This document shows positions 3,990-46,032 of a stretch of DNA of 64,000 nt, one piece after another. The position numbers were made by a program, and so were the translations under genes. The stretch's first letter is position 1, and each line of letters begins with the position of its first letter. The notes beneath the pieces are model-generated. The model was not told where the DNA came from and searched no databases. It saw nothing but the letters and a program-made list of their open reading frames with translations. Source of the stretch: Prostheceraeus crozeri (taxonomy: Eukaryota; Platyhelminthes; Polycladida; Euryleptidae); assembly GCA_907163375.1 (NCBI GenBank), contig CAJQUW010008646.1, positions 186,001 through 250,000 on the forward strand, given 5' to 3'.

Positions 3990-4062
3990 GTGCGAGTAAA
4001 CGTGTTATTGGCAATGGAAGCAAGCCACTTGTCTCCAGTGCCAATGACGATTTAACTCGCAC
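3990..4062. repeat. Imperfect hairpin related to the copy B terminal hairpin
   Basis: The left arm gtgcgagtaaacgtgttatt pairs imperfectly with the right arm ending in gtcattggcactgg-type sequence read in reverse, around a loop of about 20 bases. The arm core (GTTATTGGCA..TGGAAGCAAG) resembles the hairpin at 18760-18820. It may be the end of a related element just outside copy A. Confidence 0.5.
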
Positions 4063-6760: not shown

Positions 6761-7275
6761 AAACAAGCTACTTATAAAAACGAAATTTAAAAAATATAAT
6801 TGTTTGAATTTTGGAATGTTAGTTATTGCAACAAGAACCGCTTGAAATGCAAAATCGACAGCATTCCCAGACAGAGCATGTTTAAACTAGGTTCTACGGT
6901 AATTTTCATGTCTAATTTTCTAGATGCAATTACGAATTTTTTTAAAAAAGATTGTTTGAATTTTAAGATGCTGTTTACAGTAGCAAGATCAACTTGGAGT
7001 GAAAAACTGACACCACCATTGGTTAAAAATTCGTTTCGTGCACTAACTCGTACTGGAGGCCGGACTACATGCTTAATATATGCCGTTCCCCATTTCTGTT
7101 ATTCCGCATTATAGAACTTAAATATTTCAGCAAGAATAGTTCACAGCACTTTATCTCAAGATACAAATTTATAACTACAGCAGTCTTCAAGAACCCGATT
7201 CTTTTGACACTTAGAAACATCTTTCTATATCGATCAACGGAAAAGCCTACAATCAGTTACGAATATTTCTAATAT
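6761..7275. other. Unassigned AT-rich spacer
   Basis: No gene was recognised. Two small stretches (6785-6845 and 6940-6985) share the words ttgtttgaatttt and agatgct/aatgtt-type sequence, suggesting a short local duplication. Confidence 0.35.
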
Positions 7276-12249: not shown

Positions 12250-13600
12250 GTAAGTCAGTATAGCACGATTGATTTGCAGTCGATTAAGTAGTCACTCAGC
12301 GCATACTCGAAGTATTTCTGTGTACCTCAGTCCTCTTCATTCAAATAGGCTCCTATAGCAAAACTCAAAACCGCAATCAAAATCTCTAAATCGCATCATC
12401 AAAAATCATCCTTTTTGTCCAACAAGGATTTCTAGTAAGCTTGAAAGTTTATACCTACTTTTGAGTATCGCTTAAGTAAACAATCGATATTCGGTCACTG
12501 ATAGGCTTTTCCGATAACAGATCTGATTGACTTGTACTCGAGAATAAATTTGAGTTTTGTGTAGAATTCTGTACATATACAGGTATCTTTGATAGAGTCA
12601 TTGTTTTCGGGACTGCGGAACGTTTTTAGAATTTTCGCTGAGTGGTTGATCTGTAATTTAATCGAGACCATCATTTATGACTGTACAAATGAATTGATAA
12701 ATTGTTATACGTAAACAGAAAAACCTTCAAAACATGTTTCCGGAACGCATTTGAGGCGAAAAGACATCTGTACAATTGACATGTGCAGCATTTTGATGAT
12801 TTATATAATCACCGCGAATTCTCGATTGTATCATCATCTGGCCGACCATAAAAAACAGCTTCCGGTGAGTCATCTGTGGCGTGTGAAAAGTCTTTCAGCG
12901 TGTAAGCAAGAGTCTTTTGGTGATGTCGAGCGAGCGACTACTTTTGGGATAAAGAGAAAGAACGAGCCAGAGAAGATTACAAGGGATTGGCGAGTAGGCG
13001 AGAAAATCATGAGGACAATATGCGAGCGCAAATGTGATGAATAGCCCCCAAGCATTTTGTATGGCATTCGTTGTCGAGGAGGAAATTTGCAGTGACTTCA
13101 TTTGACGAGACACTGGTGTCTTCTAAGACGATGGATATCCACTATCTCAAGGTTCATAGGCTTATAGACAGCCGCAAGAAGAATTTATGATCAGATTTTA
13201 ATGTGCATGTAAAGTTTATGTATTTCTGTCCTTAGAAGAATGGCGCTTCTGCTGAAACCAAGCACGGTCATACTTAATTAGAAAATCAAATAAACTCCAT
13301 TCATTTTAATCATAGAAGTGAATAATTGTAAGCAAGAATTATTGTTTGATATCTCTCTCACGTACGATGTTGACATACATAAAACTGTATGTTTCAATTC
13401 AATTTCGGACCAATGCGTTGTGAAATCATGTATAAAATTAGGTCTAAAGTAAATAAATATAAGTCAAATACGTACCCAAACATGATGAACTTGACTTGGT
13501 CACACTGAACATCCCCTGAGAAATGAGAAAGAGCAGATCGATGGGAAGTGACGATGTATCCACCATTTTACATCCATATAGGTATGCGTACATGTATTCG
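12250..13600. other. Intron-like spacer
   Basis: This stretch probably lies within an intron of the plus-strand gene. A 97-residue frame at 12751-13044 has a possible acceptor (12788) and a gtgagt donor near 12861, but its composition is not convincing. No other element was recognised. Confidence 0.35.
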
Positions 13601-13639
13601 CTGGAACCTTAGCCCGTGTCTTCAACCTGTCTATCTACA

Positions 13640-15069
13640 TGTAAGAGCGTCAAATTCTGAAAAGATGGAAATTATCGCGTGTTGTTCCGGTGTGTGTCAA
13701 ATTTCGATCTACGTTAAATCAGTTGAGACAAGATCTTTCCCTGCACGTTGGAAATGTTGTGAGGTTGTGCCCATTCCTAAATGCCGTAAACCCAAACTCA
13801 AAGACTTTCGACCAATTTCTATTACTCCGGTCGTCAGTAAAATTTTTGAACGTTTGGTTCTACTGACTGTGTTGCCTGATATTTCTGCATTGTATGGGCC
13901 TTCTCAGCATGCATTTAGAAAGTTTGGTTCGACTAATAGTGCCCTAGTAAATATTCACGACACTATCACCTCATATCTCGACCTAAAGGAAACACAGGCT
14001 GTTAGAATGACATGCCTTGATTTTACTAAAGCGTTCGACAAAATTAATCATGTTTGCTTACTGAATCGTCTCTTGGAAGGTCATGTGAATCATGGTTTAG
14101 TGAGCTGGTTGAGGAGCTACTTGTGTGACAGGTCTCAAAGGCTCAAGGTCAATGGTATGTGCGGTCCACTTGCCAGCGTACCTTCTGGCTTGCCTCAGGG
14201 ATCAGTCCTTGGACAGTCGATGTTTGCGGCGTTCATGGGATCAATAGAGGTTTCATCCGGGTCACAGGCTGTCATATATGCTGATGACATCACCTTAATA
14301 GAAAAAGTTACAGTGAATAATGATCCAAATAATTTGCATCGTATTCAGGTGTGGCTTGATGAGAGAAACATGGAGCTCAATTTGTCAAAGTCAAAGCAGC
14401 TGCTGTTTTTCCGAGGTGAGAATTTTGACGCTTCATATAGTAATATCAAGATCTGTCATGATGTTAAGATTCTGGGTGTACTTTGGAATGATCGTCTTTC
14501 ATGGAATGATCATTTTCATCAAATTTTGAAAGTTGCAGCTCAGAGATTGTATGTGATCAGAACGCTGAAACCTATCATTGCCGTTGACCAACTTGTGTTG
14601 GTGTATCATTCTCTGATCACTAGTCTTTTTCTTTACTGTGCTCCACTTTTTGTTTCGTTGTCAAAAGGTGTCGACATCAAGTTAGAGCGCTTTCAAAAGC
14701 GAGCCCACAAAATTATTTGTGGTGATCATTGTGCCTGTGACAATTTTCCCTTGCTTTCTTTTGTCCGCAAAGAGCGCTCCATCAAGTTCTTTAATGAGTG
14801 TGAGTCAAACGTTTTTCATCCTTTACACCTTGTAGTACCTTCTCGTTTCCCTCGCAGTGGTCGTCTGTCTATTCCATTTGTAAGAACTTCCCGTAGATTA
14901 AACTCCTTCTTTCCATGGATGTGTTCATTTCTAAATGACTTTGTTGCCTAATGATTTTGATAGTTGTATGAGCAATCTCAACTTATCTTGTTTACTTTCT
15001 TTTTGTATTTGTGTATAAATGTATGTCATGATTCTCAATTCTTGAATAAAACACTTACTTACTTACTTA
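13640..15069 (+). mobile_element. 5'-truncated LINE with (ACTT)n tail
   Basis: This LINE lacks ORF1 and endonuclease but keeps a nearly complete reverse transcriptase frame (to 14951), a short 3' UTR with aataaa near 15045, and a tail of about four acttactta units ending at 15069. The exact 5' junction is not visible; protein similarity begins around 13690. The next base begins another 5'-truncated LINE in the same orientation. No target duplication was found. Confidence 0.8.
13690..14951 (+). CDS. Reverse transcriptase of a CR1/Jockey-type LINE (5'-truncated)
   Basis: The open frame runs uninterrupted to the stop at 14951; its nominal ATG at 13548 lies in flanking or 5' sequence. Blocks in order are FPARWKCCEVVPIPK, FRPISITPVVSKIFERLV, the palm block CLDFTKAFDKINH, SWLRSYLCDRSQRLKVNG, GLPQGSVLGQSMF, and the catalytic YADD in VIYADDITLIE. 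After these come the thumb/C-terminal region with KILGVLWNDRLSW and a Cys-rich ending around HKIICGDHCACDNFPL. The aspartates of FTKAFD and YADD are intact, so the polymerase looks recently active. Endonuclease and ORF1 are missing, so the copy cannot move alone. Confidence 0.85.
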
Positions 15070-16450
15070 ACGTGTTCCACCTAATGTTCATATTCCTCGA
15101 CCTTCCTTATTGTTGCATACCTCGGCAAAAATACTAGAGAGACTTGTCTTGCAGTCGGTTTCCAAGTTGTTTATCGATAACGTTGGTGACAAATAATATG
15201 GTGCTAGACATCTAACCTCTACTAGTGCAGCAATAATTGATCTGTATTATACTTTGATTAAGTTTTTAGAGAGCCCTGAAGTTTTAGACAAAAAATCATC
15301 GCATATTATTACACAAAAGCTTGTGACACTATGTCTCTTGAGCTAGTTGTTGAACAACAGAAAGCAAATGGCTTTCCTTTGAATTTCGTTATTTGGATGA
15401 CCAATTGCCTCGAAGACAGAGAGCAAGATACTCGGATTAGCTGCGTTGTGAGTTCATTCAATAAGATGGAATCAGGTGTGCCTCAGGGATCAGATTTGGG
15501 TCCAATGCCTTTGGCTAGTTGTTGCTTCCTTAAAATCGGCATAACAATGTACTCATCAGATAGTGCAACATATTGACGATGCAACTTTGTGCAATCCTCT
15601 TAATGAAAAATGCACAAGCCAGCATGGACTTGAAGAACATCGGGATACACTCAATTGGTCATCTGTAAATTCCGTAAACTTTATATCAAACTAGCAGAAT
15701 GTAAATCAATCTGCTACAAGATAACAATTCTAACTGACGATTATCAGCTGTCTATTATTTCCCAGCAGTTCAAGAAAGCTTCTTGTGGTCATTATCATTG
15801 ATAAGCTGACTTGGGCATCGCATGTGGGCAGGCATCTACAGAATGAGTGTGCGTTGCGACTCCTCTAACCTTTTATCATTTATAAGATGAGAGAAGTCCT
15901 TCATCAGTCTTCAGTCTTTCATCTTTCACTTGCCTGACGATGGTTGCCTGTAGCGCCAGAAAGGCCTCTCACGTTTTGAATGATAAAGAAGAGCGCTAAA
16001 CATGGACTTGTCTCATCTAATAAATTAATGACTGTTCCTCTGAAACCTTTTCCCATTGAGACTTAACTTTCTCTGGGTTATGACGCGAATATGCGACCTC
16101 TTCTAAAATGTACCTCCCCTGCATTTTTTAAAGCTTCCAGTTAGATTCAGTTATGAACTAGAAAAATTTCAGCACAGACGCCATTGAATGATTAGTGACG
16201 TCCCTGCTGGCCAGAATTACATGTGTGGCAAGTTTCAGTATTTACGACATTTATCATCAAAATACACTTGTTAAAACCTCAGCTGAGTGTCAGAATGTAT
16301 TGAACGTGATCATTTCTTAGAATTCAGAACAAACAGAAAGATTCTTGCAGCCATGGGTGAGGATAGCACATTTTTTGAACTCTTTTGTCCGATATACGAC
16401 GACTAATTTTACTAACTTTACTTAGTCACTTATCTACTTACTTAACTTAC
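15070..16450 (+). mobile_element. Decayed LINE abutting the previous one, degenerate (ACTT)n tail
   Basis: Directly after the (ACTT)n tail of the preceding LINE a second reverse transcriptase begins: LLHTSAKILERLVLQSVSKL, then a STSAAIIDLYYTLIKFLES block, then FVIWMTNCLEDREQDTRIS and ESGVPQGSDLGP, then DKLTWASHVGRHLQNE near 15800. Several stops and frame changes break it. The far end, about 16403-16450, is a degenerate run of acttact words, matching the tail type of its neighbour. The two appear to be members of one family joined head to tail. Confidence 0.7.
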
Positions 16451-18010: not shown

Positions 18011-18084
18011 CGCGTCTTGGTGGATTTGAACCACCGACCTCTGGCATTCTAGGCCAACGCTCTACCAACTGAGCTATCGACGAG
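18011..18084 (-). repeat. tRNA-derived SINE head, copy 1
   Basis: The minus strand shows an A-box TAGCTCAGTTGG, an anticodon arm with loop CTAGAAT (anticodon AGA), and a B-box GGTTCAAATCC. D, anticodon and T arms pair well, but the acceptor stem pairs only partly. AGA would be serine, yet the long variable arm required for tRNA-Ser is absent. A near-identical copy at 57398-57471 shares sequence beyond the tRNA part on both sides (cgacag near 18085 and gacggaaa near 17996), so this is a SINE rather than a tRNA gene. Confidence 0.7.
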
Positions 18085-21839: not shown

Positions 21840-22743
21840 GTTATTTTCAATCTCTGTTAGTCCGGCAGCCAGAACGAGTTTCTGCAGGGAACGAGGCCGC
21901 AAATGAGACTTTCAAAGAATGATGTACACCCTATGCCTACTATGAATCTGCGCGTCTGCCGAGTTCTAATTAGCTCCTCTTCTTGTCAGATTTGTCAAAG
22001 AAAAAAACATGTTGATCCAATGGGATGCAAATTGCAGTTTTTGGACAAAATGAAATTTTCTTTGTTTTTTCCTATTATTTGAACAGTATGAATCGTAATT
22101 TTTGACATGGAGTGTCTTCAAGTCGTTTCTTATGATGTTCATGAGCATTTATCTATGAAGGTTTAACAAGCCTCCTAATGTCGACAAAGAAAGCCATTTT
22201 TGTAAATTTCATCCACATTTAATTACATTCTTGGTTGCATGGCCGATCAGAAACATGATGATGTCACATACACATGATAGGAAATGACCATGACAAAGAA
22301 AATTCCGCTGTGACAGAGTTTTCTCAGATTGCCATTTTTCTATCATATTACAATGCCAAAACATTTCTTGATCATTGATTGTGAAAAGTAACGAAATTTG
22401 AGATAGACTTTAGATTGACAGAAATGCGAAATTCAATAAATGCAAAGAGCTAAATATTTTAGCCATTAGCTTCATTAACAATTTGGGGACACAAAGAGAT
22501 GCATGAAACATTGACTACGAAATGCACATCTTGCCGAATTTCTGACCGCGCATTCTTTTGAGTTTCTTATCCTCGAATTCGTTATTTTGATGAGCTGCTA
22601 CATCATGTGTCCATCATTCCTGCGACGAAGTGGCACAAGCTATATGTGAGTTTGTAATCAGTTATTTACTAATTAGGTTATGCAAATCTAGTGTTTAACT
22701 GAATAGATGCTTAATGCATGAGGAATGCTGATTGCTGATTGAC
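21840..22743. other. Unassigned spacer downstream of the membrane protein gene
   Basis: No gene or repeat family was recognised. Confidence 0.4.
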
Positions 22744-22758
22744 CTACACATACATCCT
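22744..22758. repeat. Target-site duplication of a LINE pair, left copy
   Basis: The 15-mer ctacacatacatcct stands directly at the 3' end of the minus-strand LINE 22759-24345. It recurs exactly at 28368-28382, just beyond the second LINE. Confidence 0.65.
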
Positions 22759-24345
22759 TCTTCTTCAGTCTCTGGTTTATCCCACATCAAGTAGAGTCGC
22801 CGTTTCTGGTCCGTGTTCGCCACATGATTCGATCCGCTGCTTCCCGCTCCTTCAACTTCTTATCCTATAAATCTTCACTCACACAATCCAACAACCTTCT
22901 CCTCGGTCTTCCAGGCTTCCTCTTGCCATGCCCTCTCTAGTCGAGCATTTGCTTTGCGTAATGTGTGTCTGTTCTCTTTGAAGTATATGGCCGCACCACA
23001 TCAGTCGCCTTTCCTGTAATTTTGCCATCCAAGTTGTATTTGATGGGCCACCTCTGCATCCAGCTCTCCATCCGCCGCCATCGTTGAACCTATGTACTTA
23101 AATTTCTTTACCCTTTTCAGCTGCTGGTTCTGTAGTTGGATATTTTTGTCACCGTCCTTATTGAACAGTGGGTATTCTTTTTTCCTTCTATTGATGTTAA
23201 AGCACCTCTCTTCCAACACACTTCTCCATTATTCCAGCTTTTCCTCGACTGCTTCACGCTCATTCCGACACAGAACGATGTCATCAGCAAATAACATGCT
23301 GCACGGAGGTTTTCATTCTACTTTTTCAATAATTACATCCATTACAATGTCGAAGAGGTAAGTAAGGACTCAGTGCTGAACCTTGGTGTAGGCCAACTCT
23401 CACGGGGAACTTTTCAGTTTTCCCAACACTGCTTCTCACGTGTGGTTCAACACCATCGTGCATATCTTGCACAATCCTGACATACTTCACCGGTATAGTC
23501 TTCTCTCTCATACACCTCCAGACCTCCTGTCGTGTCACCCTATCGTACGCTTTCTCTAGATCAATGAACACCATGTGGATTTCCTTCTGCTTCTCTTTGT
23601 GCTTCCCCATCATCATTCGCAAGGCAAAAAATCGCATAGGTTCCACGCCTTCCAGGGATAAACCCAAATTGCTCTTCACCAATACAGGTTTCTTCTCGAA
23701 TTCGATTATCTATGATCGTCTCCCAAATTTTCATTGTGTGGGACATGAGTTTTATCCCTGCGTAATTCCCGCATTCTTGTACATCCCCTTATCCTTATTG
23801 GGCGAAGTTATACCGTTCCTCAGTAAGTTTGTCAATTCCTACTTCTCCTAAAAATTTCCACGCCTCTATTGGATCTCATCGGTTCCTGTTGCCTCTCCAT
23901 TTTTCATTTTCTGCACGGCTTTTATTACTTCTTCTCGAGTAACTTCTCTAACAACTCCTTCATTCGATGTACCACTTCCAGTTGCTGCTCTTGGATTTTC
24001 TTCATCCAACAGGGTCTCGAAGTACATCTTCTACCAACACTCGTTCATTTCCATCTTTTATCTGTTTGACTTGGCTCAAGTCCTTTAATGATCTGTTTTG
24101 GCTTTTGCAATTTTGAATTTTCACTTGTCGCCTTACCGGTGTTTCCAGCTCTTCATTTACCTTCTGCCACGTTTTCGTCTTCGCACGCTTTTCTTCCTTC
24201 TTTGCAAGATTGCAGTCCTGTTTATCTGCACCACTTCCAGTCGATTCCCACTTCTTCTTCAATGCCTTTTTTCTACTTCACAGCTTCGTGAACTTCCTCG
24301 TCCCACCACCATGCCTCTTTATCAGCTGGAGCCTTCTTCCATTCA
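22759..24345 (-). mobile_element. 5'-truncated LINE, 3' partner of a two-LINE composite
   Basis: The minus strand reads, from about 24330, KKAPADKEAWWWDEEVHEA, then a linker, then HTMKIWETIIDNRI and EEQFGFIPGRRGT (23746-23561), VFIDLEKAYDRV, VGLHQGSALSPYL (23682-23326), LFADDIVL, and KFKYIGSTMAADGELDAEV (23219-23001). This is the linker-to-thumb part of a reverse transcriptase of the kind with WWW-x-EEV and Y-x-GS-x-x-x-x-DG motifs, widespread in invertebrates and related to RTE. Several frame changes break it. It ends at 22759 with a gaagaaga-like tail. Its truncated 5' end touches the tail of the next LINE. Confidence 0.8.
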
Positions 24346-24649
24346 TAATATGTGTGTTTTTATTCAAACAAATGAAAATCAGACATTACAAGGTTTGGTG
24401 AAAGAGCAAGTGAAAAACATAGAAAAAGTCAAAGTCAGAGCAGGTCAGCTTCATGGGCTTCGTGAGAGTATTTATCACGCTTTAGGAGGCCATTTGGTTT
24501 TCTCAGCAAATTCGGTTGTGAAGACCAGTGCAAAAGGGAATAAACGCAGAGTGGTGACGCATAGTCCTGATTCGAGGCATGATAAATTTTTGGGAATAAT
24601 TATGCTTCTTGGGAATAAGTTCGTGAAGCAGATGGCTATCATTTAATGC

Positions 24650-27059
24650 GGAGTCATATACTTTGAGTGCATGATGGTATCTTCTTATGAACAGGGGGTG
24701 AAAGAGCCACATGAACACTCTGAGCCGCAAACGATGCGGTGGCATTTCCGACGAATTTTTTCCAATCTTTCTGACAATTGATTATTTAGACCAACAAAAA
24801 GAGCACTACAGTATTCCAAACTGGTGAGAATGAAAGCTGAATAAATTTTTATCAGATCCTTCTTTGATATGTCATTTCTTAGTTTTGACAGAAGAAATAT
24901 TTTCTGTCTAGCTTTCCTTACTACTGCATCAATGTGAGCTGCCCATGTGAGATTACAGTCATAAATGACACCAAGAATTTTCAGCTGTGTGCACATTTCT
25001 GCGTTAAAGCTTAGGGTGATCGGACTTTGATTTTTGAACAAAATGATCTTTGTTTGGAGACATTGACTGCTAAGCCATTTTGTGAGCACCATGTTCTTAT
25101 ACCCTCATTTTCAAGACGTATGAGCTCGTCAATGTTCGAGCATGCACCGATTGAGAACAAAGTTACGATATCGTCGGCATACTTGACAGTAACGGCTGAG
25201 GATAATTGACTTTAGAAAGACCTCATGTGAGTCGAAAAGAGATAAGGCGCCAAGATTGAGCCTTGAGGTACTCCGGATGGGACAATTTTCCAAGAGCTGT
25301 GAGAGTTACCCTGTATGCGAACTCTTTGTATTCAGTCTTGAAGGTAATTGGCATACCATTCGAGAAAAGCCCCTGGTAAACGACCATCAGCGGGAGAACG
25401 AATAAGACATCCGTGCCGGACATAATCAAATCCCCTTTCTAAATCGAAGGACATCATTAAAACTCCATTACAAGACGAAACGTCAAGACTGGTCGTGATG
25501 AAATCATGAATTTTAATGTGTGCAAGTTCAGTGGAGCAATTTGGGCGGAAACCGAATTGTGAGTGACCGTATAACTCGATTAGATTTTCCTTCACAGAAC
25601 TGAGTACACATTTTTCTAGCAATTTTGAGATTATAGGTAATATCGAGATTGGGCGCAAATCCTTAATGGTGGGATTGTTATTCTTTGGAACCGGAGTTGT
25701 GTCGGCGGCTTTCCATTTTGTTGGCACTTTTCGTTCAGTAATTGAAAGGCAGAACAGATGACAGATAAGACCAGACAATGCATCCGCACTCTCTGATAGA
25801 ATCCTGGCGAATAGTCCATCACTACCTGGAGCTTTGTGAGGCTTGAGGTTTCGAAGGAGTGTGTGAACTAGTGAAACAGATACGTCGGGGGACCAATGAT
25901 CTTCGCTGCTATGCAAGAGTATTTAATCAAAAAAGTCCCAGTCAGTCTGAGAAGAAAAGTTGTTTGAAAATTCATCACTTATTCTTTCAGCAGCTTGAGA
26001 GGGGGAGGAGAACTGGCGTATAAGGGTTACAATAGACTGCTTGTTTGAACGATTCAGCAAGTTTGAGGTTAACTTCCAAACACCATTTGGGGAGCGGCTT
26101 TTTGAGTTGTTCAAGCATTTCTTAGAATTCGCAATTAAATCCTTTAATTTAGACTTGTAGTGATCATACATAACCAGATTTCCCATCCTGAAAGCTTCGT
26201 AACGTTTGTTGATGATCAACGTGATGAGCGGGGTTACCCAGGCCTTATCCTCCTCCATGAATGGTACTAGTTCGTAAGGAATTTCTTTCATAGCCCCGTA
26301 AACATACTCGTAAAATAAATTGCATTTATCTTCAATGCCAAGTGCAGCTTGATAAAAGTTGTGCCACGGAAATGATTGCAATTTCAATAAAAAGCGACCG
26401 ATGTTACTAGTCCGCAGATCGTAAATCTTCTTTATGTAAGGGACTGACAGCATTCTGTGTAAAGGGGATAGGCTGACATAGCGATGGTCCGAGTTTCCTA
26501 AATTTGGACCGACGACTGCTTCTTGGTACAATGCCGATAAAGAACTTTCAACAAGGATTTTATCCAAGATAGCTGTTCCTCTGGCAGGAGAGGTCGGCAT
26601 CGATATAAGACCAAAAAGATCTTCAAGCTCCTCCGTGCGAAAATGATTGATGTCACCTGCTATCACAGTTTTGAAATTTCCATATTCCTCAAGGACAAAT
26701 TCAATGTTGAAGACCAAGGATTGGTTAATATTTTTGAGATCTTCCACGGACAAATTAGGTGGTATGTACACGGCGACAAGAAGAATTTTTATCGCGGGGA
26801 AAATTATCCATACGTTTTCCAACGCTCGTGGACATGCAGAATGCGTATATATCCGATGACACATGATTGAATTTTCGATTAAGACGGCAACACCTCCACC
26901 TCGTCTGTCCTTACGGTCATGACGGAAAATCGTATGGTAGCCATTCAAAGAAAGTTCCTCGTTCGACACTGCATCTGACAACCACGATTCACAAATTACT
27001 ATGATATCTGGATGCGAAACAGAGCATATCAATGATAGTTCGTCGTATTTTGGAACCAA
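24650..27059 (-). pseudogene. LINE ORF2: endonuclease plus reverse transcriptase, with three stops
   Basis: From 27059 down the frame carries an apurinic-type endonuclease (IIVICESWLSD, RRGGGVAVLI, VAGDIN-type block AGDINHF, and NSDHRYVSL). Next come a linker (KRYEAFRMGN, KAPGSDGLF) and the reverse transcriptase (IKDLRPISILPIISKLLEK, FGFRPNCSTELA, SFDLERGFD, SGVPQGSILAPYLF, KYADDIVTLFS), ending in a Cys-rich CHRIVCGSECSCG. In-frame stops occur at 25923-25925 (TAA), 25332-25334 (TGA) and near 25213 (TAA), and the C-terminus is frame-changed. The endonuclease motif reads GDIN instead of the usual GDFN. The enzyme type is CR1/Jockey-like. Confidence 0.85.
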
Positions 27060-27158
27060 GGATTGAGCATTAGCTAAGAAGATGGAAGGGAGGTGAATGT
27101 CAGGCGGTAAAAACTTAACTGAAAATTTGTTATTGAGCCTCTGTCAACTATTTTGTTT

Positions 27159-27890
27159 TTACCTATATATTACAACAGATTCTCCCTTTTCGCGACGAGA
27201 TCTTAGCTGGGAGCGAAATTGTAAAAATTCTTGTTGTTGACATCTTGTTCGGTCTGGATTGATGAAGACTTTGTCATGTTGAGAACTCGAACGCAGAGTT
27301 CTGGCCCTTCGTAGAACTTTAAATTTGGATTCTTCGTTCTCGAACTTCACTTGCATCAATTTTGTACCGCCAGTTCTTGTTTTACCTATCCTTCTAATCT
27401 CCGATATCTTCATGTTCTCATGGTTAAGGCCGATGGACTGAAGGATCGAGTTAAACTCTGATTCATCATACTTTTTCCTTTCCTCTACTGTCCCATGAGT
27501 TGACTCAGGGAGGCCAGTAATTATGACATTTCCTCGACGACTCAACCTTTGCTCAAATTCCTCGAGAATATTCGGAGCCAGTTCGGATTTTACATTCATC
27601 TCATCTCTAAAGGATGTAATGAGTTTTTCGTGATGATTCTGGATTTCACTAATGGTAGAGATTCTGGATACAAGAGTGTCTAATCTTTGATGCAATGAAT
27701 CCAGTTTCTCATTTATATTCCTGAATTCTGTTTGGTTTGATTTGATTATTTCCTTTTTGTTTCTCTCCAAAATCTTTTGAATTTCATCACTTAAAGAGGA
27801 TGATTCGTTTGATTTTGACCTTGTCGTCTGCTGAGGAGTTTTGCCATTGTTGCCAGTTTCAGTATACAAAATACGAAAACGACTGTTCAC
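27159..27890 (-). CDS. LINE ORF1 protein (coiled coil plus RRM-like)
   Basis: An intact 243-residue frame. Residues 30-95 are rich in E/K/L heptads (EIQKILERNKKEIIK, KLDSLHQRLDTLVSRI), a likely trimerising coiled coil. Residues about 120-200 hold the RRM-like start NVIITGLPES and the basic RRIGKTRTGG. The C-terminus (QFRSQLRSRREKGESVVIYR) has the R-x-x-GE pattern found at the end of LINE ORF1 chaperones. Such proteins bind the element's RNA. It lies 100 bp upstream of ORF2 on the same strand. The start ATG directly follows a tRNA-like stretch. Confidence 0.8.
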   Translation of the reverse strand: MNSRFRILYTETGNNGKTPQQTTRSKSNESSSLSDEIQKILERNKKEIIKSNQTEFRNINEKLDSLHQRLDTLVSRISTISEIQNHHEKLITSFRDEMNVKSELAPNILEEFEQRLSRRGNVIITGLPESTHGTVEERKKYDESEFNSILQSIGLNHENMKISEIRRIGKTRTGGTKLMQVKFENEESKFKVLRRARTLRSSSQHDKVFINPDRTRCQQQEFLQFRSQLRSRREKGESVVIYR

Positions 27891-27895
27891 CAGCA

Positions 27896-27965
27896 GGATT
27901 CAAACCCGAATCAAAAAGTGACGCAGATTGTGGTTAGAGCACCTACCCACTACACCACCGAGCAG
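27896..27965 (-). repeat. tRNA-like sequence in the LINE 5' region
   Basis: On the minus strand, GGTGGTGTAGTGGGTAGGTG looks like a D-arm/A-box and GGGTTTGAATCC is a B-box about 45 bases on. It stands just before the ORF1 start. It is either a SINE inserted in the LINE leader or an internal Pol III-type promoter piece. It is not identical to the SINE at 18011. Confidence 0.5.
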
Positions 27966-28367
27966 TTACACAATAACGATGTGCGGATGAAGTAAGAATC
28001 CTGTAATGTTTGCAGAATAGTTGAAAGAGGGGTGAATACAATGTGCAGACGATTTCTCGGAATTACAATAATACGAGGTGATACAGTAACAATAGCGAAG
28101 TGAAAAGTTGGGCGCAGCAAATCGATGCGATGAAATTGATCCGCAATAAACACATGTAGATACACGACGCAAGAGAACGCAGCAGGAACTTGATCACGTG
28201 ACCCCAATGAACGAGATCGACAATGAAAAAGAACGCCAAACCAACGAAGAACAACGACGACACGACGACGACGACAATTCCTCGGAAACCGAAGCACACC
28301 AGCAGAATCAGGAAACCAACAGCAACCAATCAAGCCAAAAATCCGCTCAATGAGAAAATCCGCTCAT

Positions 28368-28382
28368 CTACACATACATCCT
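28368..28382. repeat. Target-site duplication of a LINE pair, right copy
   Basis: Exact copy of ctacacatacatcct at 22744-22758. It marks the 5' end of the composite of two minus-strand LINEs. Confidence 0.65.
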
Positions 28383-28795
28383 AATTATTCTAATTTACCT
28401 ATTATCTTAAGGGCTTCCTTAATACAAAATTGATCTTTTGATTCCAAAGACTATGCGAATTGTACAGCAAGACCCGAAGATGGTAATAGGCCGAGAATTT
28501 CGGGCCGGTGTTACATTGTTCAGATTATCTTAGTTTTATTTTCCGATCAGAAATTGTGATCTTGCTTTTATATTCCTATAACAATAGGAAAAAGAGTTAT
28601 TAGTCTCATTTTCGAAGTGAAACTTTATCAAAACCGCAACATGTACACGGTTCTAAGTTTCTGTGATATACATGTTCCGCTTTCGCTATAGAGACCTACA
28701 TATATCGGCTGACTATGAAATTGGATGCAATTTTGGAATACAAAAAATTTGAAACCAACCAATACGAAAATGAAAGAGACTAGTACAACAAACTT

Positions 28796-28941
28796 CATGC
28801 TCTTATCATGTAGCTCTCCTAAGATTCAAATCAAAATGTTAATTTTTGTTACTTGATTTGTGTATATGCAACATGAATAGAAGACCCAAGTTTTGTATCA
28901 CTTACCCAAGGTCGACCCAAAACCCAAGGTCCAACCTTGCT
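28796..28941 (+). repeat. Dispersed repeat R3, copy 1
   Basis: About 145 bp from tgctcttatcatgtagctct to caaggtccaacctt match 50668-50816 in direct orientation with scattered differences. Shared words include gattcaaatcaaaat/gattcgaatcaaaat and ggtcgacccaaa. Confidence 0.75.
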
Positions 28942-29399
28942 AAGCGAAAAATTACCTTCACGGTAACAGTGATGCATATTAGTAAATGCTGGAGTGTAGA
29001 AGAGAGAGAGAGAGAGATTGAGACAAACCATGTGCTGAGAGTTGTCCAGATGCAATAATTAGGATTTGTGGGTCTCATTTTAGGCAGTATTTTCCATCTG
29101 AGATGAAAAGTTAATATTAAATTAATGCAACAATGGCAGTTTTAACATCTCTTCCTTTTGATAAAAAATATATCTCTAACAGCTCATGACAATTTCAGAA
29201 CGTGTGGAAAATGACCTAACAGCACCCCAAAAGCACATCGCCATTTCTATCATCATCCTTGTGAGGAAGATTATTAGAGAAAAAACTAGAGAAATGAAAA
29301 TAAAGTTGTATTTTCAATCGTCAACTAAAATCACCTTTGTTTCTCATACTCCTAGTCTAACAAAAACAAGTATCTGTTACTTTTCCCTCGGTACGCATT

Positions 29400-34494: not shown

Positions 34495-34850
34495 CGCTTG
34501 CTACATTTAGGGCCTTACACCAAGAGCTGAAAGAGAGAAGAGACGCCGGAGAAATGTTTTTATACGAAATGGAAAGATTACGCAAATAAATGCTCGTCGT
34601 GATTGACTCGGTCATCGGTATCCCTCAATTTGCCTTACAAATGCACGTTCTGTTTCCAACAAGATGGACGAATTATCGCTATTTGTTTCTAGTCATGATT
34701 GTGACTTCATCTGTGTGGCCGAAGGCTGGCTAAACAGCACTATCCTCGACTACTCTGTTCACTTGCGTGGGTATTCTCTTTTTCGTGCCGATCGCCCTTC
34801 GCAGCGGAAAGGTGGTGGTGTTCTAGCGTGGATTAAAAAGTGAATTCTTC
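34495..34850 (+). pseudogene. LINE scrap: ORF1 tail and endonuclease start
   Basis: The stretch reads ALHQELKERRDAGEMFLYEM before a stop at about 34589, then, after a frame change, NARSVSNKMDELSLFVSSHD, FICVAEGWLNSTI and RADRPSQRKGGGVLAWIKK. The first matches the ORF1 C-terminus and the second the endonuclease N-terminus of the LINE that follows (compare FFNARSLMNKMDELSIF at 35925). It is a separate, truncated copy of a related family, ending where the 5' region of the next LINE begins. Confidence 0.7.
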
Positions 34851-35131
34851 GTTGAGATCATTGCTGATAGATACATTGATGAAACTATGGAACTACTCCA
34901 CACAGCCACGTAGTGCAGACGTATCGTTGACTCTCTCGTGCAAATTGTGATTTTCTCCTAATTTATCACGCTTAACGAACACCTACACTGACGAATTTGA
35001 CATCATTCGATTCGACGTTGCCTGGTGTACAAGTTGCTCAGCTTTTTATTGTTTGATATTGTCTTGATTTTCCACTATTTTTGATTTTTTCCATTTTGAA
35101 TACACATAATTCTTCGACAACTTACTGATTC

Positions 35132-35883
35132 ATGGCGTCCAGGAAGAACAGCGATTTGTCGATCAATATCTCATTGTGCCAGGTTTGCAACAATGGAGTA
35201 GATGGTGAGCTTTTGCGCTGTCACCTTTGCAAGAAGCCGGTACACATAAAGCGTGAATGTAGTGGTCTACCTTCAGCTGCTAGCAAAGTGATCTTGAACA
35301 ATGAAAGTGTGTCATTTGCTTGCGATTCGTGCAAGTCCATTGACATCCATGGTCTATTACAACGTTTCGTGAAAGTTGAATCCGAGCTGCAATGTATGCG
35401 TGAACAATTGAACACAAAGCTATGCATGGATTTTTCAACCATTATAGACAGAACCTTAAATGAATTTACTGAAAGACAGAACAAAAGGAACAATCTAATT
35501 GTCTTCGGCTTGGAAGAAAGCTTGTTTGATTCTGGCGACACTTGATTGAGCACGACAAGGAACAATTATGTGACATGCTTGAATCTGTTGATGCTCCCAA
35601 AGACAGTGTGGTGGTGTGCTCTCGTCTCGGCAAACGTGGTCGTAGATGTAGACCGTTGAAGGTTTGCTTTCGAAGTTATGAAGATAAAATGCGCTTCTTC
35701 AACCAAAGGTACAAGATGAAGGAATACAATGAAAGAAACAATTGTCGTGTGTCTATTCGCCACGACAAAACGAAAGCTCAGTTAGAGCACGATAAGCTTT
35801 TGTTAGAAGAATTTCAAGAACGGAAGAGGCTTGGTCACAATGTTGCAATTCGTCAAGGTAAAATTATAGAAAGAAATGACTGA
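35132..35883 (+). pseudogene. LINE ORF1 with PHD-type zinc finger, one frameshift
   Basis: Frame 35132-35545 begins near MASRKNSDLSINIS and holds a PHD-like finger: CQVCNNGVDGELLRCHLCKK, then a H and C (HIKREC), then FACDSCK, giving the C4-H-C3 pattern (residues about 17-66). A coiled segment follows (ESELQCMREQLNTKL), then NLIVFGLEES of the RRM-like part. A frame change near 35541 moves the rest to the frame ending 35883, which has RLGKRGRRCRPLKVCF and the terminal LGHNVAIRQGKIIERND. PHD fingers occur in ORF1 of some CR1-like LINEs and may read histone tails. Confidence 0.8.
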
Positions 35884-35907
35884 CAAGCACCAGTTCTCAA
35901 GACTTGC

Positions 35908-38472
35908 TTGCCATCTCCGTGTTTTTTCAATGCAAGATCACTCATGAATAAAATGGACGAACTGTCAATTTTCGTTAATACTCGTCCACCGGACATTCTG
36001 TGCGTTGTAGATACATGGTTGAGTTCTCAAGATTGTGACGACTCTATTTCTGTCAAAAGCTATAATATATTTCTTGCCGATAGAAATACTGGAGCCAATG
36101 GTGGAGGTATAGCTTGTTAGATTCACAATTCTTTTGTCTCTGAGCTGCTTTTTGCCAATCTAAATTTTCCTAAGTTGAAGTTGCAATCATCCGAATTTGG
36201 AAACAGTATTTTCACTGTGTATTAGTGATCTTATATTTTCCGCATGGAGGTCGCCTGAACGCAAATGTTTCTAGTGTGTTGAGTATTTAGGGCCTACATC
36301 GTTGCAATAGTTGACGATCTGCTGGTGAAGTATCCTGATTATTCAGTGTACATGACTGGGGACTTCAATCTTTTCAACATTTGGTATTAGCAATTTAATT
36401 CAAGAGCCTACAAGAAATGAAAGCATTTTGGATCTCGTACTTATTCCTGAAGATTACATCAGCTTGTATCATAAGCCCGAGATTCTGCCACCTATCTCGA
36501 CAAGTGACCACAACGTGCTTTTTCTCAGACCGCTTTCATCTTTCCCAAATGATGAAAATTACATCAAAGTGTTTGATTTTCGAGATTCTTTTGTGCAACG
36601 TGCATCACGTTTACTGGATGTTAACTGGGACAGTCTACTTGACAACCTGGACCTGAATGAGGCTTGTGAGATATTTTATGCATGTTTAAACAATTCCATT
36701 AATTCCTTGCCATTTGATTTGGTCAAAAGAAAATCCACGGAAAAGACATGGATCACCAATGTGATAAAGGCCAATATTAACAAGAGGTTTCAAGCTTACA
36801 GGGAAAAGAATTGGACATTGTTTGCCCACTACAAAGACAGGGTCCGACGAATGATCTGTGCTGCAAAAAGGGAATGGAGTAAGCAATACCTTTCTACAAA
36901 GTCTATTTGGGATATTAAGAAAATTCACAGTGGCTGTGCTACAGTCAATCCTAACTGGCTATCTCAATGTGATCCTGACATGACAATAGATGACATTTTG
37001 CAAATTACAAATGACAATTTTGTGCGGCGTTTGTGCGTGATTTGCCGGATAAAGTGCATCTACCATTCACGGCTCCTTTTCAGTTTGTTGAAAGTCATGT
37101 GGAATTACTGTTGACACGTGTCCGATCGAGTACAAGTTCTGGATCTGATGAAATCCCTTCGATGGCATGGTCTAAATTTGCTCATTTTATTTCTAAGCCT
37201 TTGACAATACTCTACAACAAATGTCTATGTTCTGCTGATCTTCCAAGTGTGTGGAAGAAGGCTAATGTGATATTGTTTCCGAAGTCAATTTTCCTCCAAA
37301 TTTAGATCGCATTCGTCCCATTTGTCTATTGTCTATACCAGAGCGTTTATTTGAAAAAGAGCTTCTTAAACATGTTGGTGGCAATACGAGTATATCAGAA
37401 CACATTGATGCGCAGCAGTTTGGTTACCGCAAGAAATCTTCGACAACATGTGCTTTATTAAAAGTTGAGGATTTTGTCACACGTACTCTTCAAATGCCTG
37501 ACGTAAATGCTTGTCACCTGCTGTCATTGGATTTAGAAAAGGGGTTTGACAAGATTTCTCATCGTTTGCTGATAGACAAAATGCTGCGAAATCGTCTTAA
37601 TCCGTTTCTCATATCCTTTATGACGAATTATATAACCTCAAGATACCAAAGGACAAGATGGAAGGACCTTCACAGTGAGTATCTGCCAGTCACGGGTGGA
37701 TTACCGCAAGGCTTGTCCATCGGCCCCTCCATGTTTGCATTCTTCGCAGCTGATTTGCTCATTCAAAATAGTCATGATGTTTTACTAACAAAGTATGCAG
37801 ACGATATAGTTGTCGTTGGAGCAATACGGAAAGGCTACTCACAGATCTCTGTGCTCAATGCGCTTACTGACATCGCCACTTGGATAACGGAGATTAAGAC
37901 GGAAAAGTGTTCTCAGATTTTCTTCCGACTCTCCAAGGCTCATACTTGTGAAGGTCTATGCATCCCCAATGATCCTATTCAAACAGAATTTAAGTTTCTT
38001 GACTATGCATGAAAGTTTCAAGTGGCATTTACATGTTCAGAACATTACAAAAAGCGCTTCATCTAGACTTTCCGTGTTAAGACAATTAAGGACTTTTATC
38101 AGTTGTGAGGACTTAGTCAGTATATATAATAATTGCATCAGGAGCATCCTCGAATATGCGGCACCTATGTTCTGCCATCTTCAAGTGAAGGATAATGTTC
38201 TGTTAGAAAAAGTTCAGTCCCGAGCCCACAAAATTATCTATGGTGCCTCAAATTGTGATTGTGAAAACTTTTTGCCACTAGATTATCGCAGAAACATTTT
38301 GGGAGTTCGACTGTTCCAGAGCTTGGTGAATGACGAATCGCATCCCCTGCATCACTTGTCTCCAGAAGTCAACCTCCATTCAAAGACATATCGCATGCCA
38401 AAAGTGATGGCTTCAATTCGTGATAAATCATTCATTTCCATGATGCGTCTGTCAAATAGCGGTTTTTTCTAA
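35908..38472 (+). pseudogene. LINE ORF2: endonuclease and reverse transcriptase, multiple frameshifts
   Basis: Pieces in order: endonuclease start (FFNARSLMNKMDELSIF, ILCVVDTWLSS, GANGGGIAC), its end (TSDHNVLFLRPL near 36500), linker (KTWITNVIKANINKRFQAYR), and reverse transcriptase. The last comprises SSGSDEIPSMAWSKF, PICLLSIPERLFEKELL, FGYRKKSSTTCALL, LDLEKGFDKISH, GGLPQGLSIGPSMF, KYADDIVVVGA and KIIYGASNCDCENFLPL. Catalytic aspartates of LEKGFD and YADD remain. At least four frame changes (near 36120, 37030, 37290 and 37960) make it non-functional. Confidence 0.85.
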
Positions 38473-38606
38473 CTTTTGAGTCTTTCGATTGTGTTTTTGT
38501 TAATGTCTTTTTCCAATCATAGAAATGTGTGTATCTTTTTACTTTTCGTGCCTCACGTTTTTCAGTAATGAGACTTTTGATAAATATACGATTATTATTA
38601 TTATTA

Positions 38607-41096
38607 CTCATGCTACGTGTTCATCGAGGATCATTCACGTGTTTTCTGTTGGTGGTTTATTTTCCTTATGGTCAGACTATGAATGTCTCTGCAAAAACAT
38701 CGTGTTTCAAATATCTTATTAATTTAATCGACGGACAATTAGATACATTTTTGAATTCATATTTATACGTTGTTGGGGATTTTCAACCGCATTGATCATT
38801 CGCCTCTGGAACTCAATTTCTCCTTCTAAAATGTCGTATTTGATCCTACACGTAAATATGCTATCCTTGACCTAATCCTTATTCCCGAGGAACTCGTGCC
38901 TCAATATCGACCAGCCGAAGTCTACGCTCCTATCGCAAAGAGTGATCATGCTATGTTGCATTTAAAGACCGTTGCAAATTATCCTGAGGATAATTCTTGC
39001 AAGAAAGTGTTGGATTTACGGGACTCGAATTTGGAACCTACACGTATATTGAGCCATCTACTTTCCCTGAATTTCGAGAATTTGTTTTCTAAATTGAGCC
39101 TGAATGACATGACTGCTAAGTTCTATGATATTTTCAATGACTGTATCTCGTCTCTGCCGTACGATTATATTCCACGAACGTCGAATGACAAACCTTGGAT
39201 CACTTCGAACATCAAGGTCCTAATTAACAAGCGCTACATAGCCTACCGATCTGGCAGATGGACTTTATATTATCACTACCGCGATAAGGTGAGGAGAGCC
39301 ATATTTGAAGCGAAACGCGCCTGGGCAAATCGCATTCAGAAGGAAGGAGTCTCGATCTGGCATATAAAAGACAAAGTTTTGGGTAACCCGCGAGATTATG
39401 AGTGGCTGCAGAAGTGTGCCCCAAATGATCAAGTACCTACTGTGTTAAACTTCCTCAGCGACAAATACACGTCTGTTATGAATAATGATCCTGCTGAGCT
39501 ACTCCCATGTCCATTTATCATTCCTTACAACTTCTTGGAATCAGAAGTTGAAAAACTTTTACTGGGAGTCAACCCAAGGAAGTCTCCTGGCTTAGACGGG
39601 GTACCTTCAATTTTGTGGGTGAAGCTGGCGTCTGGTCTTGCTAATCCCATTTGCCGGATATTTAATAGATGTCTTCAAACAGCAAACTTACCTTCCCTAT
39701 GGAAACAAGCGGATGTGGTTCCTGTACCGAAGACAAGGTCACCCAGTCTGTCAGATACTCGACCTATATCCCTACTGCCCATGCCTGCCAGACTGTTTGA
39801 GCGGTTTATTGTGAAATTAATTTCCAGCGAATTATCTAAACATGCAGATTCAACGCAGTATGCCTACAAGAGAAAGAGCTCAACGAACTGTGCCCTGATA
39901 CTGCTAACTGACTACATCGCTAAAGCTCTATCTTCAAAGCATATTTCTTCTTGTCAACTGTTGACACTTGATCTAGAGAAGGGATTTGATCGTCTGTCCC
40001 ATAAACTTCTGATTGAGAAAATGCTGAGAGACGATTTCGATCCCTACCTTGTGACCTTCGTCTTCAATTACCTAAATGGTCGATCACAGAGGGTCCGTTT
40101 GAAGTCCGATTTCAGTGAATACAAACATGCTACCAGTGGTGTCCCTCAGGGGTCATCGATTGGGCCCTCCTTGTTTTCATATTTCTTATCTGATCTGAAA
40201 ATAGCCTCCAATGTGTGCATGGTGAAGTATGCAGATGATATTTTTATATGTGGTTCATGGTGTTATATGACGATTCTGCAATTGTAACCGCCTATAATGA
40301 AATAATGACGTGGATGTTGAACAATGGGATGAGCATTCAAATAAGAAAATGTCGACAGATGACTATAATCCTTGTCGTATAATCACTATCCTATTTGGTC
40401 TGTCAATGATGTCCCATGTGTTGAGGAACTAAAAATTCAAGGAGTAACTTTTGATCAGTGCCTCACTTGGAAATCCCATTTTGAAATCGTTTGTAGAAGA
40501 GCCTCGTCCAAAATGTACGTTCTTCGAACACTGCAGCCCTATCACAACCCTAATGAGCTTTTCCTTATATATTCTGCGTGTATCAGAAGTGTGCTTGAAT
40601 ACAGCGGTCCACTATTTGTGAATTTGGGAAAGTATCAAAGTGACCTGGTGGAAAGCGCGCAAGATAGATGCCATCGCATCATATGTGGCTCGGCCTCCTC
40701 ATGCGGTTGTTCACTCTTCGTCCCGCTACATTACAGACGAACTATTCTTGGTTGGAACTTATTCCAGCAAATATTAACGGATGAAAGTCATCCGATCCAC
40801 GGCCCTTTGCTTCCCCGACTACCACATACTCAACACTTTCGTGTTCCATTGTCTTCAAATTGCCTTCTACAGCGTTCATTCGTTCCCACTATGTCGAAAT
40901 TAAGTAATTCGAATTTCAATGTATAGCGGTTCTCGTTCGACTTGCTTGCTTACTTCCTTATTTTTTTGAATTTGCGTTTCTATTCGTATTGACTTGTTAT
41001 GTATTATTTACCTTTGCACATCCCATGTTGTAACTTGATTATGCCCCACGATTCTCAATATTGGGGTCTGAGAAAATAAACGTTATTATTATTATT
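38607..41096 (+). mobile_element. 5'-truncated LINE directly joined to the preceding LINE, (ATT)n tail
   Basis: It starts inside the endonuclease immediately after the (ATT)n tail of the upstream LINE, runs through reverse transcriptase, and ends with aataaacg and four att units at about 41082-41096. It belongs to a related but distinct subfamily: its C-terminus ends KLSNSNFNV against RLSNSGFF in the neighbour. Confidence 0.8.
38620..40926 (+). pseudogene. LINE ORF2 fragment: partial endonuclease and reverse transcriptase
   Basis: After LLVVYFPYG and VVGDFQ of the endonuclease, a frame change leads to the long frame 38896-40287 with KSDHAMLHL, KPWITSNIKVLINKRYIAYR, RKSPGLDGVPSILWVKL, DTRPISLLPMPARLFERF, YAYKRKSSTNCAL, LDLEKGFDRLSHKLL, SGVPQGSSIGPSLF and KYADDIFI. 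A frameshift near 40262 and a stop precede the last frame (40372-40926), which has the Cys-rich HRIICGSASSCGCS. The core polymerase (463 codons) is uninterrupted, making it the best preserved of this family here. Confidence 0.85.
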
Positions 41097-43681: not shown

Positions 43682-46032
43682 CACTAGAACGGCCGAAGAT
43701 TTTTTATACCTAGAACGGCTAAATCCGTCAATTGACGATTTTCATTCATATACCACGTTTTACTATTTAACTGTTAAAATAATGCAAATAATAGCGCTAA
43801 ATCTTAAAAAAATCATGATTAAGCTATGTATTATCAGACAAAACAAAGCAAAACTCTATTAATTAAGGTCATAATTTCGAAAAAAATCGTCTTTTCAGTT
43901 TTTCATTTTTGTAGCTGGCCATGCCATTGTGATATTTTTCATTCATTGATGCATTTGTCAAAGCAACCATCGTGATTGAAATTCTGGCCTCTGAACACAC
44001 GTTGCGTAACGCGTGCGACGTTATCTTACAAGGCCGCTGCGCTGGTCTCCTTTATAGACATGAATAGAGCTCGCATTCAATCAGCGCGCGAGCGCACACA
44101 AAGGAGAACGCGGTGATGCTTCGAGAGATTGTATTGTTTTCGCACACCCAATCAAATATTGTCTAGATAAAAATAGAGGCGTAATTATTGCAAATCAGGC
44201 GAGGAGCAGTGTTCATCTGGCCTTGCCAGCGCGGTCGCCTTGTGATTCCATTTCACTCTCAAATTTGACACGATGGCAAGAAGACGCTATTCTGCTGAGC
44301 AGGAATTTTTGATCTCGCAGACGATGATTCTGGAGATGAATCTGGACGAGAATCAGCCTTAGAAGATGAACAAGATATTGAAGAATCAGTCGTCAGCTCC
44401 AGTGAGGATGAAGATTAGCCTGATCACGGGCAACCTGGAAAAGTTGAAGGGCGTGATAACACTAAATGGCGCGTTGTCAGAGATCAAAACGTAAGACGCC
44501 CAGGAAGGACAGCACAGCACAACGTGTTCAACGAACGAGTTGGAGTCACAAGAATGTGCCAAACCATTGTAAACCCGTTAGACGCCTTCAGACTTATTTT
44601 CGATAGATAGTGTGTTCTTCATATCGTCAATTGCACCCAACAATTTGCAAGAAGAATTGGCAATGAAAACTGGAAGTTTGACGAAGAAGACCTTGAAAAG
44701 TTTATCGCCTACTTTACCTACGCGGAATTAATAATCAAAAGAATTTTCCTTTCAATGATCTTTGGTCCAAGGCCGTAGGATGCCCTGCCTTCAACAAGAC
44801 GATGTCCCGAAGAGAGATCGTGCTCGTAAAATAAAGCGATATATACATTTTGACAATCGTGAAGACCGTCGAGGAAACCTTGATAACGACAAGTTTGCTT
44901 TCATCTCTCCAATTCTCAAAGAATTCGTCGAAAACAGGCAGAAGTGCTATCGTCCAGGTCCATGTTTGACTATTGATGAGCAGCTGTTCCCAACGAAGGC
45001 CCGGTGCAGGTTTACGCAATACATGCCGAATAAGCCGGACAAATTCGGCATCAAATTTTGGCTGTTAGCAAATGTTGATACAAAATATTGCTTCAACATC
45101 ATTTCTTGTATCGGTCGCGATGAAACTCGTGTGGAATCCCTCGGCACTCACGTGGTAATGCTGTTGACGGAGCCTTTACACAACAAAGGTTACAGCGTTA
45201 CGACGGACAATTTCTTCATTTCAAAACATCTTGCTGAATTGCTGCTACAAAAGCGAACCACGATTACTGGAACTATGCGCAACAAACGACGAGAGTTTCC
45301 ACCACTACAGCCTCTGGAACTACACAATTCCATTTTCTTTGAGTGCGACGCAATGCATCTGACAATGTATCAAGCAAAAAAATAAAACCGTCTACATTCT
45401 TTCGTCGCAACATCGCGGCTCAACCTGTCAACCTGTTGGTAAGAAAAAAACAGAGACGGTTTTGTTCTACAACAACACGAAGTTTGGGGTTGACATGCTC
45501 GATTCAATGTGCCGCCATTTCTCAACGAAGTCGGGATGCGGAAGATGGCCTCCAGCAGTTTTTTATAACATTCTTGACTTGGCTGCAGTGAACTCGTGGA
45601 TCATATACAAGAAACAAACTGGCTCTGGAATTTCTCGCCGCAAATTCCTCTTCGAATTGTCAAAACAGCTTCAACGAGACGATGACCAAGAAGCGCGCAA
45701 TGATGCCCTTCCAATGACCCTGGATCGTCGTGTGACCTGCGCCATCCATGACAAGTGCGAAATAAATCGCACCGTGAACCTCTGCAGAAAATGCAAAAAG
45801 CCAGTGTGTGGAAAGTGTCAGGCAATTGTTTGCATAAAATGTTTCTGAAATGAACTATTGCGGCGAATATTATTGTCCGATTATTTGAAGTATATGGACA
45901 TGTATTACTGTTACTACTACTTCTGATGTATGTATGCTGGAAATAAAGGTTGTGTTTCTATTCTCACATTGTAGTTGGAATTCTAGAGAAAATCTAGTTG
46001 GGAATTCTCAAAAGCCCACATGGTGTCCAGTG
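43682..46032 (+). mobile_element. PiggyBac-like DNA transposon, degenerate but with both ends
   Basis: Left end: CTAA|CACTAGAACGGCC. Right end: GTGTCCAGTG|TTAA (TTAA at 46033-46036). Read inward the ends are CACTAGAACGG and CACTGGACACC, a short imperfect terminal inverted repeat next to TTAA (left flank degraded to CTAA). The length of 2.35 kb is normal for piggyBac. A subterminal copy, cctagaacggc (43710-43720), lies just inside the left end, as does the palindrome cgtcaattgacg. Confidence 0.65.
44272..45848 (+). pseudogene. PiggyBac transposase pseudogene
   Basis: The relic starts with MARRRYSAEQ, then in another frame an acidic N-terminal run (DDDSGDESGRESALEDEQDI). Next come NWKFDEEDLEKFIAYFTY, the core frame 44762-45385 with RARKIKRYIHFDN, CLTIDEQLFPTKARCRFTQY, PDKFGIKFWLLAN and YSVTTDNFFIS, and frame 45462-45848 with NNTKFGVDMLDSMCRHFS. 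The catalytic aspartates of TIDEQL, TTDNFF and GVDMLD are visible. The C-terminus has a Cys-rich zinc finger (CAIHDKCEI, then CRKCKKPVCGKC). Frameshifts lie near 44310, 44740 and in the A-run at 45377, and stops occur between. The enzyme would cut and paste at TTAA. Confidence 0.88.

Follow-up and report, generated by a model that had tools for sequence, protein, structure and literature searches.

Two LINEs of different families joined head to tail within one target-site duplication in Prostheceraeus crozeri

Several genomes hold retrotransposon copies in which a long interspersed nuclear element (LINE) is joined at its 5' side to a second RNA. In Magnaporthe, MINE and the other WEIRD/Mg-SINE/MGL chimeras consist of a full-length 5' part joined directly, and in the same orientation, to a 5'-truncated LINE (MGL) or short interspersed nuclear element (SINE); a single duplication of 10–20 bp surrounds the whole where it is visible (19 of 31 MINEs; PMC2104539). 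In vertebrate U6/L1, U6/RTEX and Alu/L1 chimeras the second RNA likewise lies on the LINE 5' side within one duplication, and an RTE-like LINE can serve as primary template (PMC4476161, PMC13174262), as RTEX-2 does in three U6 chimeras of Anolis (PMC4476161). Here we analyze a locus of similar build at 22744–28382 of a 64,000-bp stretch of Prostheceraeus crozeri DNA (contig CAJQUW010008646.1, positions 186,001 to 250,000; hereafter the window), where a near full-length LINE is followed directly, in the same orientation, by a 5'-truncated RTE-type LINE of another clade, and where, as in MINE, one short duplication surrounds both.

Two LINEs within a single outer duplication

Both elements lie on the minus strand and are directly joined, with at most ~29 nt unassigned between them. 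Together they form an insert of 5.6 kb, of which the RTE-type part contributes ~1.6 kb. The features are listed below by window position; L001 is the RTE-like element used as protein reference.

22744–22758, plus strand: target-site duplication next to the RTE 3' end (exact 15/15 match)
22759–24345, minus strand: 5'-truncated, decayed RTE-type LINE with endonuclease–reverse transcriptase (EN–RT) linker, RT and C-terminus (frame-aware alignment to L001, 24323–23010)
22759–22786, minus strand: presumed 3' untranslated region (UTR) of the RTE-type part, 28 nt, ending in GAAGAAGA
24346–28367, minus strand: near full-length LINE with two open reading frames (ORFs), 5' partner of the chimera (Pfam endonuclease, just below cut-off, and RVT_1)
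24346–24502, minus strand: LINE 3' UTR and tail (AATAAA at 24364–24359, then AACACACATATTAT)
24503–27143, minus strand: LINE ORF2 region, endonuclease and reverse transcriptase (three in-frame stops and two frameshifts kept)
27162–27847, minus strand: LINE ORF1 region, from reading frames (one probable frameshift near its start)
27848–28367, minus strand: presumed LINE 5' UTR, 520 bp (GC 0.442, CpG observed/expected 1.3; upstream of the first ORF1 ATG)
28368–28382, plus strand: target-site duplication next to the LINE 5' end (exact 15/15 match)

The position of the inner junction is narrowed to about 24351–24323 and no further, because secure RTE protein homology begins at 24323 and the LINE end was read without a consensus.

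The sequence CTACACATACATCCT occurs exactly at 22744–22758 and at 28368–28382, and nowhere else in the window at up to 2 mismatches. In a shuffled control the mean number of matches was 0.15, and two matches were found in 0 of 100 shuffles. When pairs of 40-nt and 60-nt flanks were simulated from the dinucleotide chain of the window (n = 200,000), the longest common run was 14 nt, seen twice, and 15 nt was never reached. By a looser control, a 30-nt flank had some 12-mer in common with 12 kb of simulated sequence in 11/400 trials. Further exact 15–16-mer pairs, apparently unrelated, exist in the 64 kb (e.g. 16311/26116 and 20324/57258), so the weight of the duplication lies in its position, not in its length. 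Read along the element, the 5' flank runs into the repeat as AATAATT|AGGATG, giving a T|A nick with TT at –10/–11. RTE-clade insertions are described with a thymine stretch ~10 nt upstream and TA at the cut (PMC13295347); the present start is a partial fit to this Tn-TA signature and, being a single site, weak evidence. The AG with which the repeat starts could also be a continuation of the GAA tail of the RTE-type part.

A duplication belonging to the LINE itself was sought at its two boundaries. No common 6- to 12-mer was found between the inner junction (24311–24360) and the LINE 5' boundary (28331–28430), and a separate duplication of at least 6 bases was rejected for want of any matching run there. 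A third copy of CTACACATACATCCT starting at 24300–24420 was also not found (best fit 8 mismatches direct, 6 inverted). The endonuclease-linker half of the RTE-type element was not found in 21900–22760, 27800–28420 or 28368–29300 (frame-aware scores 46, 33 and 29, respectively, versus 159 for the true segment). A tblastn search of the whole window with the N-terminal piece of the L001 RTE protein (E up to 1e-4) returned no rows, and since it missed the true fragment too this result was set aside. The initial annotation of this DNA had described two minus-strand LINEs of different families end to end, with their only duplication outside both and none around the upstream LINE, and had argued that a chance 15-bp match, possible in 64 kb, is unlikely at these points. 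The Pfam domains and the L001 alignment agree with the first of these claims and the searches above bear out the rest; remaining second-LINE sequence, which the annotation had named as contrary evidence, was not found beyond the LINE 5' end in 28368–29300. Because two families share one outer duplication, with no inner duplication found and no RTE 5' half in the three flanks, a single insertion event is the best reading; we put the probability of such an origin, whatever the RNA route, at roughly 0.78.

The joined elements and other repeats of the window

The upstream LINE (28367–24346) carries a 5' region, ORF1, ORF2 and a 3' UTR, its completeness being judged without family consensus ends. 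A Pfam endonuclease match in 27143–25926 (E = 5.7e-05, 23.4 bits) is just short of the 24.5 cut-off, and RVT_1 is matched in 25922–25335 (E = 1.2e-09). In ORF1 the sole Pfam match, NPV_P10 at 19.6 bits, fell below its threshold of 29.8; the LINE stretches 25104–24688 and 24781–24506 gave no Pfam match, and hence no RNase H. Identity to the other LINEs of the window is ~28–43% over matched stretches. The element is putatively CR1/Jockey-type, a kind of LINE marked by two ORFs, an APE endonuclease, RT, the lack of RNase H and a tail other than poly(A). Its 3' terminus reads AATAAAAACACACATATTAT, with no poly(A) tail. In three other LINEs of the window the end consists of AATAAA or ATAAA followed by a short repeat (~15050, ACTT; ~38590, ATT; ~41080, ATT), and these like-patterned ends indirectly suggest that the 3' end of the LINE is genuine. 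At its extreme 5' end a 12-bp sequence is repeated at 17-nt spacing (28338–28366), which may be native or a small re-copying during insertion. Letters resembling tRNA A and B boxes stand at 27885–27960 (minus strand), just upstream of ORF1; no tRNA-derived promoter is claimed, as Rfam gave no tRNA in 27700–28400 up to E = 1 despite these letters. Searches of the Protein Data Bank (PDB) matched the RTs of L1 ORF2p, R2 and relatives, with a weaker bacterial RT and chance rows besides, and do not inform the mechanism.

Homology of the downstream part (24345–22759) to RTE begins in the EN–RT linker, i.e. this part is 5'-truncated. RVT_1 is matched in 23709–23329 (E = 3.2e-11). Compared with L001, 158/308 aligned residues are identical over 23964–23010 and 43/107 over 24323–23977; identity to the L001 RTE-like ORF is 53% for this part, over 113 residues, against 22% for the upstream LINE. 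We assume from its motifs, not from a tree, that L001 belongs to the RTE clade, and 23010–22787 presumably encodes the RTE C-terminus, a portion that L001 lacks. A GAA-type tail, GAAGAAGA, stands at the primed 3' end, 28 nt past the presumed stop. The tail is probably genuine, judged by the habit of RTE LINEs rather than by a consensus: (TTG)n, (CAA)n and (CGA)n are among the short terminal repeats described for them (PMC3747384, PMC13295347). In another LINE on the L001 contig an ATG-type tail comes straight after the stop; its relative at the left end of the window shows a TGA-type tail shortly past 162, where protein homology ends. The contig that holds L001 is filed under a Breoghania metagenome-assembled genome; its positions 1–6113 contain two eukaryote-type LINEs, one apparently antisense inside the RTE-like other, and the contig is most likely eukaryotic contamination. 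Relatives were sought in viral contigs by protein and by pattern, and in genome contigs by the first pattern, unproductively. A nucleotide search of the window for further copies of the LINE or the RTE-type part returned self matches only.

Two further arrangements of LINEs were seen in the window. At 34622–41090 (plus strand), in what appears to be ordinary same-strand nesting, a LINE at ~34870–38605 interrupts a LINE of the same general kind (34622–34849, and from 38767 on); the inner element has a cysteine-rich ORF1 that we take to be PHD-like. A second head-to-tail contact (plus strand) joins a LINE that is 5'-truncated and ends in (ACTT)n (13510–15065) to an RT fragment of another LINE (15066–15516). 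No convincing outer duplication was found around this contact, where the 3' end of the second LINE is not fixed, and the upstream half of that LINE was not found in 12300–13560. Among other elements, tRNA-like stretches above the Rfam threshold at 18011–18083 and 57398–57470 (minus strand) lie in a repeated unit and are probably tRNA-derived SINEs. A long tandem array at 5003–6790 (plus strand) is open for 595 codons and encodes a ten-residue protein repeat. An inverted pair, 2553–3486 and 20628–19596 (~1 kb, 90% identity), perhaps represents two copies of one mobile element. Broken DNA transposon ORFs occupy 44762–45848 (plus strand), with Pfam DDE_Tnp_1_7 in 44762–45385 (E = 2.1e-41); we presume this transposon to be piggyBac-type.

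Possible origins of the joined copy

In a single event of target-primed reverse transcription (TPRT), an endonuclease would nick the target, where the tail GAAGAAGA at the 3' end of an RTE-type RNA would prime. About 1.6 kb of RTE RNA, probably from an already decayed copy used in trans, would be reverse transcribed up to the 5' end of a broken RNA, whereupon the polymerase would switch to the 3' end of the other-clade LINE RNA and copy it to the LINE 5' end, unless ligation had already united the two RNAs. Once the staggered cut was repaired, one 15-bp duplication would remain outside both elements. Three of the five hallmarks listed for template-switch chimeras are found here, namely a 5'-truncated 3' LINE, a direct same-orientation join and outer short direct repeats; the other two listed are a full-length RNA copy as the 5' part and random truncation sites among independent chimeras (PMC2104539). 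Ligation before insertion is a further route, and from sequence alone it is not told apart from a jump (PMC13174262). Our tentative choice is one of these two-RNA routes, jump or ligation, held at somewhat less than even odds; that two RNAs were present, that the polymerase jumped and which enzyme acted are points that we infer.

Several points weigh against this reading. The main count of frame breaks gave 11 in 1,537 bp of the RTE-type part (24323–22787; 7.2/kb) versus 5 in 2,640 bp of ORF2 (1.9/kb), a ~4-fold excess (one-sided p = 0.0095) that a jump between two live elements does not predict. The excess has the same direction by every rule and is not secure under the strictest (p = 0.002 to 0.15): 9 in the RTE aligned core (24323–23010) versus 5 gave p = 0.017, and the strictest RTE count, 7 versus 5, p = 0.065; with the ORF2 count raised to 7, p = 0.049 (9 versus 7) or 0.15 (7 versus 7); all printed breaks, 14 in the RTE-type part versus 7 in the LINE, gave p = 0.002. 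From the 14 printed in 24323–23010, the stops at 24135, 24123 and 24033 and the frameshift pair 24142/24102 were dropped as possible compensating artefacts, and 9 were kept; the strictest count of 7 also omits 23797/23791, printed as stops with a gap. Two extra RTE frame changes in 23010–22787 were taken from open segments, not from the alignment. In the LINE, the pair 25922/25876 (one at 25870 with another reference) was dropped because a single open frame runs through it, and 3 stops and 2 frameshifts were kept; retaining the pair weakens the comparison. Larger deletions were left out of the counts, and the unequal closeness of the references (~51% for the RTE core, ~32% for the LINE) biases the comparison toward finding RTE breaks. 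As the RTE-type part is the more broken, it may have been copied in trans from the RNA of an element already dead, and the two RNAs may therefore not stem from two equally live elements; judging from these breaks, the RTE template was probably a fossil by the time of insertion. The nested LINE at ~34870–38605 is likewise without a clear duplication, showing only 7-base matches, so the missing inner duplication at the LINE/RTE locus counts only moderately as evidence, and greater weight falls on the exact outer repeat and on the RTE half that was not found. The ends of the LINE and any microhomology at the junction are provisional, being read from this copy and not from a family consensus. In addition, opossum U6/RTE chimeras lack a clear duplication and are left open by the authors (PMC4476161).

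The initial annotation had ascribed the locus to one event by template jumping. The single event stands as the best reading, for the outer duplication is one and no RTE 5' half was found in the three flanks; jumping is not established, since a single chimeric RNA made by read-through or ligation, which had not been considered, predicts the same anatomy. For read-through, the LINE would have lain on the same strand inside an old decayed RTE element elsewhere, and a transcript begun at the LINE's own 5' promoter and running past the LINE 3' end to the RTE 3' end would have been inserted in trans by RTE machinery, as in 3' transduction. Under this route a near full-length LINE, a truncated RTE and a single duplication are all expected, as is, with no extra assumption, the older look of the RTE-type part, and same-strand nesting of one LINE in another does occur in the window. 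On the other hand it demands three things at once, a LINE on the same strand within an RTE, read-through, and mobilization in trans, and the one literature search aimed at such cases found no precedent; we consider it possible, with odds of the order of one against two. An old RTE is expected by read-through and merely permitted by a jump, and both alike require RTE machinery acting in trans on a dead copy, a possibility suggested by SINEs with RTE tails in common (PMC3747384). What puts jump or ligation a little in front is that hundreds of such chimeras are recorded from human DNA: 253 contain small RNAs of known types and 452 contain Alu (PMC13174262).

Explanations other than a single event fare worse. 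If a truncated RTE had inserted with the 15-bp duplication and the LINE had then entered at its 5' border, or in the reverse order, the RTE would appear older than the LINE, as it does; 15 perfect bases alone do not date the RTE insertion closely, and the nested LINE of the window makes the missing inner duplication less than decisive. Such a history requires an exact landing at the border with no visible duplication, or a third repeat copy between the elements, and neither was seen; moreover, in the nested pair of the window the older element flanks both sides, unlike here. We regard two sequential insertions as unlikely. Insertion of the LINE into a longer RTE followed by deletion of the RTE 5' half is very unlikely: no consensus defines where the LINE begins, so its 5' end could be truncated, but the deletion would have to end within about a base of the duplication, and no RTE remnant was found in 27800–28420. 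Least credible is an assembly artefact or a chance 15-mer, for, although apparently unrelated 15–16-mer pairs occur elsewhere, one copy of the repeat directly adjoins the RTE tail and the other the outer LINE edge, and no simulated flank pair attained a 15-nt match.

Significance and comparison with described chimeras

If both LINEs entered together, a LINE can be brought to a new site by another, unrelated LINE's machinery, acting through an end foreign to the passenger. If true, this would offer a route for clades to exchange 3' ends or 5' regions, and for LINE-tailed SINEs to arise. The signature of the locus, in which the 3' tail of one LINE meets a truncated LINE from a second clade and one outer duplication encloses the pair, is clean and countable in a genome-wide census. 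As a long shot, polymerases of one LINE clade might copy whole, near-intact elements of another by switching from the RNA of a dead relative; dead RTE copies would then be carriers that spread foreign LINEs at full length, and the genome may hold such a hybrid family.

Among the papers listed by the literature searches, mostly at the level of titles and the openings of abstracts, no chimera with a whole other-clade LINE as 5' partner was found. The R2/R1 hybrid SIDEs of Drosophila are the nearest analogue, in that they unite sequences of two different LINEs and show on insertion the 14-bp duplication typical of the 3' partner; they differ in being short and internally deleted, made of the R2 ribozyme and the R1 3' end, and their authors favour DNA recombination (PMC3414825). 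The vertebrate chimeras have small RNAs, SINEs and pieces of mRNA and long non-coding RNA as partners (PMC4476161, PMC13174262). The 5' partner in MINE is a 1.1-kb non-coding RNA, whereas here it is a ~4-kb LINE of another clade, and MINE is present in 31 copies, whereas one copy of the present chimera is known (PMC2104539). Hybrid copies of this sort are known, as MINE, U6/L1 and Alu/L1 attest, and it is the 4-kb LINE as partner that is unusual.

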